DNA from: a virus | Reading direction: 5' to 3' (one strand) | IMG/VR virus record: IMGVR_UViG_3300027841_000027 | Location: 1-22,120 of that record | Length of the DNA: 22,120 nt | Shown: positions 7,027-21,047 of the stretch, piece after piece | Numbering within the stretch: the stretch's first letter is position 1 | Layout: each line of letters begins with the position of its first letter | Position numbers and translations under genes: made by a program | Notes under the pieces: generated by a model | Database searches by the model: none | What the model saw: the letters and a program-made list of their open reading frames with translations, nothing else | Told to the model about the DNA's origin: nothing

Positions 7027-7047
7027 ACGTCGTGATGACGTAAAGGA
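7027..7047 (+). promoter_or_regulatory. ACGTC/GACGT hairpin fused to the capsid gene ribosome binding site (copy 1)
   Basis: ACGTC (7027-7031) and GACGT (7037-7041) form a 5-bp stem with a GTGAT loop. The stem is followed at once by AAAGGA (7042-7047), the Shine-Dalgarno of the capsid gene at 7056. The same arrangement recurs before the sheath and baseplate J genes. Confidence 0.7.
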
Positions 7048-7055
7048 CTTAAACC

Positions 7056-8498
7056 ATGTATAACGGCGTACAGAGCCAGAACTACAATTACCAGAAGGGT
7101 GCAATCCGCTCACTGGTACAGAAAGCGTTGCTCTCGTCCGATACCAGTGTCGGCGCAGGGCTTATCCCCCAACACCTCGAAAAGCTCATCACTACCACGA
7201 TTGTCAGGCTCGTTCCTGAAATTGCGGTAATTGATCCGCAGTTCGATAGCCAGAAGTACCACGAGTTCACCCGCTTGACCGCGCTTCCCGATGGTCAGGG
7301 GACTATCGGTGAATCCGGCGTTACCCCCACTGGCCGATCGAACTACCAGCGCACGGGCCGCAATCTCAAGGTTACTCGCTCGAAAGGCGCGGTAACCAAC
7401 TTCTTGCAGGATGCGTCGAAAAACTACATTGACGCGCTTTCCGTCGAGATGGAGAATCACGTACAGGCCCATGCCTACAATCTTACCATCCAGCTTCACT
7501 GGGGTAACGATCAGGCCGACCCGTACCAGTTCCCCGGCCTTGACTATTTCATCCAGACCAACCGCGTGGCCGGTACTCGCGGCGGTACGGTGCCGACTGA
7601 CCTTTCACTCCTTGACGACATGATCGACAAGAATATGAGACTTCAGGGCGCGAACCATCGCAAGGCGTTCCTCATGTCCCCTGAGATGCTCTCGAAGTTC
7701 TCGCGGCTCTTGACCAACGTACGTCTCAATCAGGGACTTTCCGGCGGTGGACTCTCGACCGTTGAAATCCCCGGCGGATGGAGACTTCAGGCGTACCGTG
7801 ATGTACCGATCATCACTACCACGCAGACCCGCAACGATACGCAGATGGGAACCATCACCCCGACGACCGCCGCAACCGGTGGAACCGTGGCCGACGCGAC
7901 CTATTACTTTCAGGTATCGTATATCGATATCAACGGCGAGTCCGTTGCATCGGCTGAAGTCTCGCAAGTTTGCGGAAGCGCGAACGTCTCGACCGTTACC
8001 CTCACATGGGCAGATGTCGCGACCGCTCGACTCTACAAGATTTATTGCTCGACTTCGACCGGCGTTGAAAAACTCGTATCTATCCTTCCCGCGAACCAGT
8101 ACGATAGCGCCGGTACTCCGATTGCTCGCACTACCACGGTAACGTTCTCGACCACGCCGACTTCGGTTAACCCGACCGTATCGGCCCCGGCTGGACTCGT
8201 TGCCACTCTTCCCGCGAGCTACGCGCCCGTGACTACGAAGATGGGTAGCGACCTTCCGATCGTTGCAACTGGTGGCGTCGTTCCTGAGCGCGTCATTCTC
8301 TGGGACTTGGACAAGATTCAGGGTCTCGGCAAGTTCGCGTATACGAACAGCGCCGGTAGCCGTTTCGGTGGACTCGTCACCATGGAACCCCTCGCGAAGA
8401 CGGATGATAACAATCCGTTCCTCATCAAGACCTATGGAACCCTGATCGATTCGTTCGAGCAGACTTCCTACGTCGCGATGAATATCCGCAGGGCGTAA
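7056..8498 (+). CDS. Major capsid protein with inserted Ig/FnIII-like domain
   Basis: A 480-aa protein placed right after protease and scaffold-like genes, with an elaborated ribosome binding site and the codon bias of a highly expressed gene. Residues 1-260 and 395-480 look like one HK97-fold capsid chain interrupted by an insert: an N-terminal arm, a region with LPDGQGTIGESGVTPTGRSN that fits an E-loop-like segment, helical KNYIDALSVEMENHVQAHAY, and the closing FAYTNSAGSRFGGLVTMEPL. Residues about 265-385 are Thr/Ser/Val-rich, with DATYYFQVSYIDINGESVAS and TVTLTWADVATARLYKIYCS, a pattern typical of fibronectin III/Ig-like beta sandwiches. The only two cysteines of the protein (306 and 331) are in this insert. 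It would form a protruding surface domain on each capsomer. The fold call is from context and pattern, not a search. Confidence 0.85.
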   Translation: MYNGVQSQNYNYQKGAIRSLVQKALLSSDTSVGAGLIPQHLEKLITTTIVRLVPEIAVIDPQFDSQKYHEFTRLTALPDGQGTIGESGVTPTGRSNYQRTGRNLKVTRSKGAVTNFLQDASKNYIDALSVEMENHVQAHAYNLTIQLHWGNDQADPYQFPGLDYFIQTNRVAGTRGGTVPTDLSLLDDMIDKNMRLQGANHRKAFLMSPEMLSKFSRLLTNVRLNQGLSGGGLSTVEIPGGWRLQAYRDVPIITTTQTRNDTQMGTITPTTAATGGTVADATYYFQVSYIDINGESVASAEVSQVCGSANVSTVTLTWADVATARLYKIYCSTSTGVEKLVSILPANQYDSAGTPIARTTTVTFSTTPTSVNPTVSAPAGLVATLPASYAPVTTKMGSDLPIVATGGVVPERVILWDLDKIQGLGKFAYTNSAGSRFGGLVTMEPLAKTDDNNPFLIKTYGTLIDSFEQTSYVAMNIRRA

Positions 8499-8499
8499 C

Positions 8500-8835
8500 G
8501 TGGCCGTTGTTTCCCGCGCTGAGTTCGAGGCGAAGGCAAGTGAAAAGCCTTTTGCCTCGGCTCAGGTTGTAGCGATACCAGAACTTCCTGACGTGTCAGT
8601 CAATGATGCGCCGGAAAGTTTCAAGGTTGAACCGGTCAAGCGAAAGCCTAACGGTAAAGACCCGTGGTTTTACTTACAGCATCCCGATTGTACTGATAGC
8701 TTCAAGCCAGATTGTACAATGACGGTTGTGGGGGAAACAGTGGAAATTAAGGGCGGGCGCGTGGATACGCAAGTTGAAGCCGTCCGTGATGAATTGATAC
8801 GCCAATCTTGGCGATGGATGAACGAGGAGTTCTAA
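8500..8835 (+). CDS. Small head-region protein, unknown function (111 aa)
   Basis: The frame opens with GTG at 8500, one base after the capsid stop, with no strong Shine-Dalgarno, so translation probably depends on ribosomes finishing the capsid gene. The 111-aa product has a variable N-terminal third rich in Ala, Val, Glu and Pro, then NGKDPWFYLQHPDCTDSFKP and a beta-like segment ending in RDELIRQSWRWMNEEF. It contains two cysteines and several Trp, with no obvious enzymatic motif. Proteins encoded directly after the capsid gene are often decoration or head-completion proteins; I cannot show this here. Confidence 0.65.
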   Translation: MAVVSRAEFEAKASEKPFASAQVVAIPELPDVSVNDAPESFKVEPVKRKPNGKDPWFYLQHPDCTDSFKPDCTMTVVGETVEIKGGRVDTQVEAVRDELIRQSWRWMNEEF

Positions 8836-8837
8836 CC

Positions 8838-19912: not shown

Positions 19913-20610
19913 TGCCCAATAGACGCGGCGACGAATACGGGGAAATCCTCGACATATTGGCACGGGAAACGCGCTTTCTCAAAACGTATACCGGAAAGGT
20001 TTTATCAGTCGATGATGAACTGACACGCGGGCGCGTAAAGCTATCAATACCGGAATTAGGCTGGCTTACTGAAGATCAAAGCCCGTGGACTGAGCCGGAA
20101 TACCCATTGCGCGGTTGTATTGTTCCCGATGTCGGCGACTGGGTAACGGTGTTTTTCCTTGCAGGGAACCCGGCGCGTCCGGTGTATCGTTCCCGTACCG
20201 GCGAGATAAAAGAGTCATGGCCCGCAAGCTATACCGGGCCGGAAACGCGCATACTGTACGATGACGGTACAACCGTTATCATGTACAATGTGAAAGAGAA
20301 AACGCTATCCGTAACCGGCCCGGAAACGGTCTCTATTGACGGTAACGCTATCAATATGAGCGGAAAAACGCTATCCATTGACGAATCCGATAAGATTACC
20401 GCCGATGGTAGCGCAATCGAATTAAACGGCAACAGTAAGGTATTTGTGACCCATGCAGAGCTTAACACGGCGCTTCAATTATTCATGACGGCGCTCAATT
20501 TGCACACGCATACCAGTGCGGCTTCTGGTAGTCCCACTTCGCCGCCGGTCACACCGATGACGCTTGACATAACAAGCTCGAAGACCACAACGATAAAGAC
20601 AGGGGGATAA
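19912..20610 (+). CDS. Baseplate spike (gpV/gp45-like) with terminal HxH metal site
   Basis: A 232-aa protein, coupled by TAATG and preceded by GGGGGA (19897-19902). Residues about 25-100 form an OB-fold (YTGKVLSVDDELTRGRVKLS, CIVPDVGDWVTVFFLAGNPA); residues 110-180 form a beta-helix-like repeat region (VIMYNVKEKTLSVTGPETVS, INMSGKTLSIDESDKIT). Near the end, LNLHTHTSAASG supplies the HxH motif (His198, His200) that binds an iron ion in the membrane-piercing tips of P2 gpV and Mu gp45. The tip is followed by about 30 residues. It would puncture the outer membrane, suggesting a Gram-negative-type host envelope. Confidence 0.82.
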   Translation: MPNRRGDEYGEILDILARETRFLKTYTGKVLSVDDELTRGRVKLSIPELGWLTEDQSPWTEPEYPLRGCIVPDVGDWVTVFFLAGNPARPVYRSRTGEIKESWPASYTGPETRILYDDGTTVIMYNVKEKTLSVTGPETVSIDGNAINMSGKTLSIDESDKITADGSAIELNGNSKVFVTHAELNTALQLFMTALNLHTHTSAASGSPTSPPVTPMTLDITSSKTTTIKTGG

Positions 20611-20611
20611 A

Positions 20612-20998
20612 ATGAACATTGACGGCGATTACTTTTTCTACTATGGCCTTGTCGATCAACGCAAAGAGATAGAAGCTGACCTTGTACAGATTATCATGCA
20701 AGACAAGCGAGGACTTTTTTATGACCGCTCCTATGGCGCGGGCGTGGGGGAATATGAGAATACCCCCGGCGGATTGTCCCTTGAGGTCAACATGAAATAC
20801 GACATAGCAACCGCAATCGCAAAGCGTAATCAAGAGGTCACGGATGGAACGAATGGGACACGCGACCGGCGAGCGATATCGAGTCAATCGGCTATCAGGA
20901 TCGATCAAGCGCCCGGTGAGGTTGACGTGCAAGTCTTGTATATTCCGTACTTTGATTACCAGAATCCCGGTATTGTGCGCGTCCCCTTGACGGCGTAA
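20612..20998 (+). CDS. Baseplate wedge protein, GPW/gp25-like
   Basis: A 128-aa protein starting one base after the spike stop, with a G-rich ribosome binding site. Contains QRKEIEADLVQIIMQDKRGL, FYDRSYGAGVGEYENTPGG and a beta C-terminus with VDVQVLYIPYFDYQNPGIVR. Size, position between spike and J, and the 'eI...l...l.t..Ger...p.yG.gl' plan suit the gp25/GPW family, which forms the inner wedge and starts the sheath. Some classic family residues are not obvious, so this is partly positional. Confidence 0.7.
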   Translation: MNIDGDYFFYYGLVDQRKEIEADLVQIIMQDKRGLFYDRSYGAGVGEYENTPGGLSLEVNMKYDIATAIAKRNQEVTDGTNGTRDRRAISSQSAIRIDQAPGEVDVQVLYIPYFDYQNPGIVRVPLTA

Positions 20999-21027
20999 AC
21001 TTTCGCGGGTACTATGTTTATAAATCA

Positions 21028-21047
21028 ACGTCGTGATGACGTGGAGG
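21028..21047 (+). promoter_or_regulatory. ACGTC/GACGT hairpin fused to the baseplate J ribosome binding site (copy 3)
   Basis: ACGTC (21028-21032), loop GTGAT, GACGT (21038-21042), followed at once by GGAGG (21043-21047). The stem and loop are identical to copy 1. A TATAAATC stretch lies at 21019-21026, but a start from it would fall inside the hairpin. Confidence 0.7.

Follow-up and report, generated by a model that had tools for sequence, protein, structure and literature searches.

A GNRA-capped hairpin clasping the Shine-Dalgarno sequence of virion genes in unrelated phages: a probable portable RNA signal at translation start

Why should one small hairpin recur against the Shine-Dalgarno (SD) sequences of three separate genes of a single virus? 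The question is raised by the 22-kb viral record IMGVR_UViG_3300027841_000027, the whole of which is referred to here as the window, where ACGTC-loop-GACGT abuts an SD sequence at 7027, 13164 and 21028 (Table 1). A first-pass annotation of this DNA had reported these three sites with loops of GTGAT, GAGA and GTGAT, and both its coordinates and its loops are accurate. Many unrelated DNA phages and certain RNA phages have this hairpin ahead of their virion genes as well, which makes a portable RNA signal governing the translation of virion proteins probable. On balance, comparison of the sequences leads us to favor a cis-acting RNA element that sits where translation of highly expressed virion genes begins and would have a role in initiation. 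We infer an effect on translation from its structure, covariation, position, gene class and recurrence across viruses.

The element consists of an A·R mismatch, a 5-bp stem of the form nnGUC/GACnn and a GNRA or GNRA+1 loop, with the 3' end of the stem located at the SD sequence. Below the mismatch, which is either A.A or A.G, 2-3 additional pairs link a CUU, CUA or UC on the 5' side with the AAG or GA that makes up the 5' half of the SD, while its GGA stays unpaired. The first-pass annotation described the upper hairpin and the SD correctly and overlooked this lower stem formed with the 5' half of the SD. Among the kin of the window, the loops (GTGAT, GTGAA, GAGAT, GTAAC, GTGA and GAGA) are all GNRA plus or minus one base. 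The computed fold energy of the upper stem is -4.5 to -5.4 kcal/mol and that of both stems together is -6.5 to -8.3 kcal/mol; by this calculation, the capped upper stem would be too weak for a long ribosome block, yet enough to set the local fold. In nearly all members, the 3' stem end abuts the SD core and the start codon comes next, which is the fixed position of a ribosome-binding-site element, with SD adjacency having been built into the search patterns for all but the members found by homology. The SD and start codon are the only context that is constant across members.

Within the window, the pattern ACGTCN{3,8}GACGT occurs 3 times versus 0.22 expected from shuffles, with 1/100 shuffles reaching 3, a figure that leaves aside that 3/3 copies abut an SD located 6-10 nt before a start codon. 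A covariance model of the element (R2) matched the same three copies and no others at E<0.5, in agreement with the earlier statement that no further gene in the window carries the hairpin; the hub gene of the window (15476) is likewise without a copy. The gene names proposed in the first-pass annotation fared unevenly. The capsid assignment is upheld by its PHROG match and the baseplate J assignment corresponds to a weak match with the baseplate wedge PHROG. The sheath assignment found no such match, as Pfam and PHROG searches of the gene at 13194 were both negative; its homolog in Leptospira phage LE3 is annotated as a "putative tail protein", and we refer to the product as sheath-like. The start codon behind copy 3 is TTG, which corrects the earlier annotation.

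Table 1. Copies of the element in the window, the genes behind them and the hairpins found upstream
Feature	Coordinates	Strand	Details
Copy 1	7023..7047	+	R2 42.3 bits
Copy 1 lower stem	CTT 7023-7025 / AAG 7043-7045		mismatch A7026.A7042
Copy 1 upper stem	ACGTC 7027-7031 / GACGT 7037-7041		loop GTGAT 7032-7036; SD AAAGGA 7042-7047
Major capsid protein gene (480 aa), behind copy 1	7056..8498	+	phrog_212 major head protein, E 2.8e-13
Copy 2	13160..13183	+	R2 37.3 bits
Copy 2 lower stem	CTT 13160-13162 / AAG 13179-13181		A.A mismatch
Copy 2 upper stem	ACGTC 13164-13168 / GACGT 13173-13177		loop GAGA; SD AAAGGA 13178-13183
Tail protein gene (605 aa), behind copy 2	13194..15011	+	sheath-like from position and size
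Copy 3	21025..21048	+	R2 40.5 bits
Copy 3 lower stem	TC 21025-21026 / GA 21044-21045		mismatch A21027.G21043
Copy 3 upper stem	ACGTC 21028-21032 / GACGT 21038-21042		loop GTGAT; SD GGAGGA 21043-21048
Baseplate wedge/J-like gene, TTG start, behind copy 3	21057..22118, running off the window	+	phrog_219, E 1.5e-4
Upstream hairpin	6975..7011	+	outer stem GGUUGCACC/GGUGCAACU, apical TGTC-GAGA-GACA, then T-rich tract
Terminator-like hairpin upstream of copy 2	13131..13145	+	CGCGATTTACTCGCG and T-rich tail

Are the same genes marked in relatives of this phage? A 43-kb contig encoding the same capsid gene (100%) includes copies two and three and ends inside the capsid gene. With three R2 matches in the window, and with two in these 43 kb that are both strong, the element is confined to few genes. 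A capsid search of viral contigs yielded relatives at 50-79% identity, and the hairpin precedes capsid and/or sheath-like genes in L005, L006, L007, L008, L010 and L053 (loci are given by our own numbers). The L008 record has a further copy before its J-like gene as well as one at its baseplate-hub-like gene, in which ATGTC/GACAT replaces ACGTC/GACGT. Megablast against named phages returned no relative.

Among unrelated DNA phages, the genes behind the hairpin encode major capsid proteins from at least seven families, in addition to major tail proteins and portals, with gene names resting upon PHROG and Pfam matches. A first scan employed AYGTC-GNRA(N)-GACRT plus an SD and a second employed CTGTC..GACAG plus an SD, i.e. 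a doubly changed stem. Besides kin and chance coding-region matches, the former returned capsid leaders of the SU10_MCP (L041, L086), Phage_cap_E (L090), Gp13-like (L097), P22 coat (L044) and HK97-type (L098) families, and the L044 leader differs from the capsid leader of the window at few positions, even though the coats are unrelated. The latter returned 28 contigs, mostly with intergenic sites ahead of head, tail or portal genes, including major head (L257, L260, L274, L255), major tail (L260, L272), portal (L261, L265) and tail fibre/tail (L273) genes. Several phages encode two copies, such as those before the head and tail-tube genes of L260 and L276. Matches in L054, L091, L092, L099, L259, L263, L280 and others were set aside as chance coding-region matches, and a weak partial match lies ahead of the gene in the scaffold position of Pseudanabaena phage Pan3.

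It could be argued that a stable hairpin has simply arisen by chance or been copied along with neighboring genes, as the kin of the window do share genes and upper-stem patterns preselect paired bases. The pairing record gives this explanation a negligible probability. Among 80 SU10_MCP loci collected by protein homology, members near L086 have the hairpin in the same place with compensatory exchanges at pair 1 (A-U/C-G), pair 2 (C-G/U-A) and pair 4 (U-A/C-G), and the stem versions in this set include ATGTC/GACAT, CTGTC/GACAG and ACGCC/GGCGT. The 5'-side bases just outside of the stem are free of any pattern constraint; nevertheless, among 37 cases the flanking pair (-2,+2) is T-A in 21, C-G in 11 and other in 5, while (-3,+3) is T-A in 24, C-G in 7 and other in 6. 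In total, 64/74 flank positions are paired versus a permutation mean of 49.9, and 0/20,000 permutations reach the observed value. In an alignment of 34 cases, 95.8% of cells are paired and both sides are changed in 50 cells, which was matched by 0/500 shuffles and approached by no slid register, although these pairing statistics are not formal probabilities, because related sequences are counted repeatedly. The covarying versions, CG/AU/UA, UA/CG and UUA..AAA vs UCA..RGA, involve both stem and lower stem. Position -1 is A in 34/37 cases; with a single exception this A faces A or G, which places an A.R mismatch between the lower and upper stems. Together with the unrelated capsid families that share the hairpin, the compensatory changes in members found by homology are not what mere inheritance would produce. 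The first-pass annotation had proposed a covariance-model search of relatives: with R2 at E<0.01 over 55 SU10 loci (199 kb), 9/9 matches are located at a capsid start, several of these sequences having been part of the model, while single weak matches mean little, as a 30-nt model is low in information. Thus, both covariation and occurrence at the same genes in relatives, upon which that annotation had staked its proposal, were found.

A hairpin of any sequence abuts the SD in 10/50 SU10 capsid leaders, compared with 4.4% of shuffles and 6/85 other genes, and 3/10 of these are unrelated to the element. An unrelated hairpin abuts the SD just before the capsid start in the SU10 relatives L159, L165 and L183, with sequences such as GCGGG-TAAA-CCCGC and GCGGC-TAAT-GTCGC, as if another structure took the place of the element.

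The first-pass annotation had preferred RNA structure over a DNA operator, and that choice is borne out by the compensatory changes, by loops that vary in length while GNRA is kept and by occurrences in single-stranded RNA (ssRNA) phages. In a short-query BLAST of three 30-nt versions against 50,697 phage records, exact hairpins for two of the versions were found solely in ssRNA phages, while the third matched other phages. An exact hairpin lies in the maturation-coat gap of BK014135 (L101) and BK013723 (L102), matches that are merely suggestive, since GNRA hairpins are abundant in ssRNA genomes. R2 was then applied to ssRNA genomes that had been collected by their homology to replicase or coat. 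L115 and L116, which were found by replicase homology only, both exhibit the full SD-clasping design at the coat start: a 5' arm rich in U that pairs with the AAAGG of the SD, a small internal loop and a capped stem. The L115 version reads CUUUCG-CU-CGUC-GUGA-GACG-C-CGAAAGGAG, whereas L116 has a compensatory GCC/GGC version, CGCC-GUGAU-GGCG. Their R2 scores are modest (14.8 and 13.4 bits) due to extra bases at the junction. Across 13 ssRNA genomes, three of which were picked by motif, 4/7 such cores lie within 75 nt ahead of the coat gene (binomial 4e-6). An exact ACGTC hairpin in the ssRNA phage L216 was excluded as a leader, as it sits inside the maturation gene. Separately, a GACTTCGAAAGAAGTC-like hairpin recurs early in the replicase gene of the ssRNA phages L107, L108 and L110-L113, which may reflect coding conservation or RNA structure.

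A late promoter element or dyad operator acting in DNA is accordingly very improbable. The DNA is palindromic, an AT-rich stretch lies upstream and a possible TTGACG-17-TACTAT can be discerned by eye at 20987-21015 before copy 3, overlapping the end of the upstream gene; yet ssRNA phage occurrences contradict such a role, as do the varying loop length with GNRA kept and the covariation of the lower stem with the SD, and no sigma-70 hexamers or other promoter were found at 6800-7100. If the TTGACG-17-TACTAT site were used, the copy 3 hairpin would form the extreme 5' end of the transcript. Elsewhere in the window, a scan located a sigma-70-like TTGACA-16-TAAACT at 939-966 that ends ~7 nt before the portal ATG at 973, and TTGACA-17-TAAGGT was observed by eye at 5121-5149, ending ~7 nt before the ATG at 5157; transcripts from these sites would be leaderless or nearly so. 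The window begins with a 12-bp tandem repeat, ATGGCGGTGGCG, at 1-72.

The surroundings of the element bear upon another possibility, namely an mRNA stabiliser or processing boundary, in which a terminator-like hairpin and A/U-rich linker are followed by a hairpin that shields the new 5' end from RNase E/J. The window, L006, L010, L090 and L097 all have a terminator-like or capped hairpin and a T-rich stretch just upstream. The 6975 hairpin recurs upstream of the major capsid hairpin in L006 and L053 and has a GCCC..GGGC plus T tract counterpart in the unrelated L090 and L097, while L006 and L010 have other stems at the place of the 13131 hairpin. Near-identical tandem leaders, GCCCAACGTCGNGAGACA..GGGC-T tract-TTCAACGTCG-NGA-GACGTAGAGGAG, precede the unrelated capsid genes of L090 (390-470; Phage_cap_E) and L097 (2400-2468; Gp13-like). 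In HK97-like and tail-tube leaders, two hairpins stand in tandem and the first resembles the element in design. The leaders of L257, L260, L266, L270, L272 and L276 have an additional hairpin, AAAGGACCGYC-GNRA-GRCAGGGYCGG, ~10-20 nt before the SD-abutting one; it includes an A.G mismatch of its own and shows compensatory changes (GUC/GAC to GCC/GGC, G-C to A-U), the L276 example being on the reverse strand ~40 nt before 8189. Moreover, 5'-proximal hairpins or ribosome sites are able to stabilize mRNA (PMC3997798). Even so, we regard a stabiliser, as also suggested in the first-pass annotation, as improbable. It fits poorly wherever the element lies 0-20 nt past an upstream stop codon, with the hairpin beginning 0-15 nt past it in several cases, or internally in ssRNA genomes. 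The capsid SU10 group has no linker, terminator or extra leader, with its hairpin placed 0-3 nt past the scaffold stop wherever that stop is placeable, and neither strict SD abutment nor SD pairing would be needed for such a role. In L041 and in the HK97-type L098, the hairpin is 13-14 nt past a stop codon. The SD-abutting hairpin itself is not an intrinsic terminator, as it is followed by AAAGGA or GGAGGA rather than by T.

Against Rfam 15, neither the window nor seven further loci had a match at the family threshold, and eight more loci yielded only unrelated sub-threshold matches. R2 detected no element in the searched stretches of lambda, T7 and P22. The P22 record NC_002371 (L319) has an annotated putative stem-loop just after the coat gene (6102-6119), described as like lambda and HK97 in location, a place that differs from that of the element. 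Across 398 Pseudomonadota genomes, the element is absent as a class, with only chance-level matches or the same Marinomonas prophage being returned; two weak matches that were inspected lie in coding sequence. A host-gene origin was rejected, as a genome-contig scan returned only a Marinomonas prophage gene of unassigned function. This 166-aa gene, which has no family match, follows a strong match (MRWKDRNKMGSL..) in L089 (at 2190) and in Marinomonas spartinae (L122/L123) and is the only clear non-structural or function-unassigned target. Single-word BLAST matches in Edwardsiella and Aeromonas phages were also rejected, being located elsewhere than ahead of structural genes. Mimicry of a 23S rRNA hairpin, GUCGUGAGACAG, was considered and is at most a possible lead: a search of one genome did not find its pattern, and a stem change such as CTGTC has no need of such mimicry. 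Our literature search, in which subscription journals were little covered, found no description of the element.

How might such an element act? A stable capped upper stem would shut out other upstream pairing and anchor the SD in a constant position next to a helix, and the weak lower stem would be melted by the incoming 30S subunit. The outcome would be high, insulated and possibly timed translation of coat, tail-tube, sheath and comparable cistrons, whatever the upstream message. A translational enhancer, as the first-pass annotation proposed, is plausible. The half-paired SD suggests either presentation to the 30S subunit or a clamp that could be closed by a bound factor, and as the lower stem pairs part of the SD, the element could also reduce translation or set its timing. 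Across viral realms, the GUC-GNRA-GAC top is nearly constant, which suggests recognition by a component of the host, whether the 30S subunit or an RNA-binding protein. We tentatively suggest that dsDNA tailed phages and positive-strand RNA phages share one SD-clasping GNRA module across realms, read by a common host component, and that it represents a cis-RNA family absent from Rfam and the model phages checked.

A related, though rather unlikely, explanation is that the element is the target of an RNA-binding translational regulator, either of the host or carried by many phages. Such a regulator would recognize the GNRA loop together with the 5 bp and the A.R mismatch below it, clamping the SD so as to repress late translation or set its timing, much like gp43, gp32 and RNA-phage coat proteins at their own operators. 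The top is conserved beyond the needs of a stem, the mismatch-to-loop distance is fixed at 5 bp, half of the SD is covered by the lower stem and several virion genes per phage carry the element in a regulon-like manner. However, only a host protein could fill this role, since the element is shared by unrelated phages, including 4-kb RNA phages with 3-4 annotated genes, and the 398 Pseudomonadota genomes lack the element as a class. The site of a phage late regulator, another suggestion of the first-pass annotation, is weakened because the element is common to unrelated phages rather than specific to one phage group.

Several observations weigh against a role of the element in promoting initiation. 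Partial SD pairing alone would lower, not raise, initiation. Predicted folds of the whole start region favor other pairings in the L006 sheath leader, L255, L253 and the second copy of L276, and window copies 1 and 3 are also predicted to pair otherwise in long context. The distribution of the element is sporadic: it is missing from the capsid relatives L009 (60%) and L011 (50%), as well as from named capsid relatives (Cronobacter Ss1 and Rhizobium, Serratia, Enterobacter, Pseudomonas and Leptospira phages, LE3 among the last). The hairpins of L101 and L102 lie 14-15 nt from the SD, and the other nine of the 13 ssRNA genomes have no core in the 75 nt before coat. Finally, most DNA-phage members were found using stem-constrained patterns, such that upper-stem pairing was partly selected, a caveat that does not apply to flank pairs or to the homology-found members, the latter being fewer in number.

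The element is distinct from the systems it most resembles. The coat-bound operator of MS2-type phages is a hairpin over the replicase start, in which the stem has a bulged A and the loop is ANYA. Both are small hairpins over a phage ribosome-binding site, but the element has a GNRA(N) loop and no conserved bulge, precedes coat and other virion genes and is common to unrelated coats, which places it outside this class. The boxB of lambda, found with boxA in nut sites, has a 5-bp stem and GNRNA pentaloop and hence a similar stem and GNRA-like 5-nt loop, whereas the element has GNRA or GNRAN, lies against the SDs of structural genes and does not qualify as a boxB, with boxA not having been systematically searched. 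FourU RNA thermometers likewise pair a U-rich sequence weakly with the SD, while the element pairs only half of the SD, next to an A.R mismatch that lies below a GNRA stem of fixed form, and we know of no temperature logic for it. The T7 gene 10 leader (NC_001604) also has a hairpin before a major capsid gene, but this one is of unrelated sequence and is located at the 5' end of the transcript, distant from the SD. The mRNA operators of T4/RB69 gene 43 and T4 gene 32 are phage RNA structures upstream of and extending into the ribosome-binding site; these are autogenous, serve one replication protein and lie ~40-67 nt upstream of the start (PMC3014915), unlike the element, which abuts the SD, has a GNRA loop and serves unrelated virion genes. 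Finally, the ompA, papA and aprE leaders, cited in PMC3997798, have stabiliser hairpins at or near the transcript 5' end and near strong ribosome-binding sites of highly expressed genes, whereas the element is intercistronic, sequence-conserved and SD-paired.

Structured RNAs near phage ribosome-binding sites have been known singly and are usually tied to one phage protein. Here, one such structure recurs in unrelated phages ahead of the genes for capsid, tail-tube and portal proteins; compensatory changes support it, and RNA phages have counterparts. If confirmed, the element would offer a way of tagging virion genes by sequence in uncultured phages and would point to a host factor or ribosome contact. 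It would also imply that widely different viruses converge upon, or exchange, one way to drive or time the translation of their coats.

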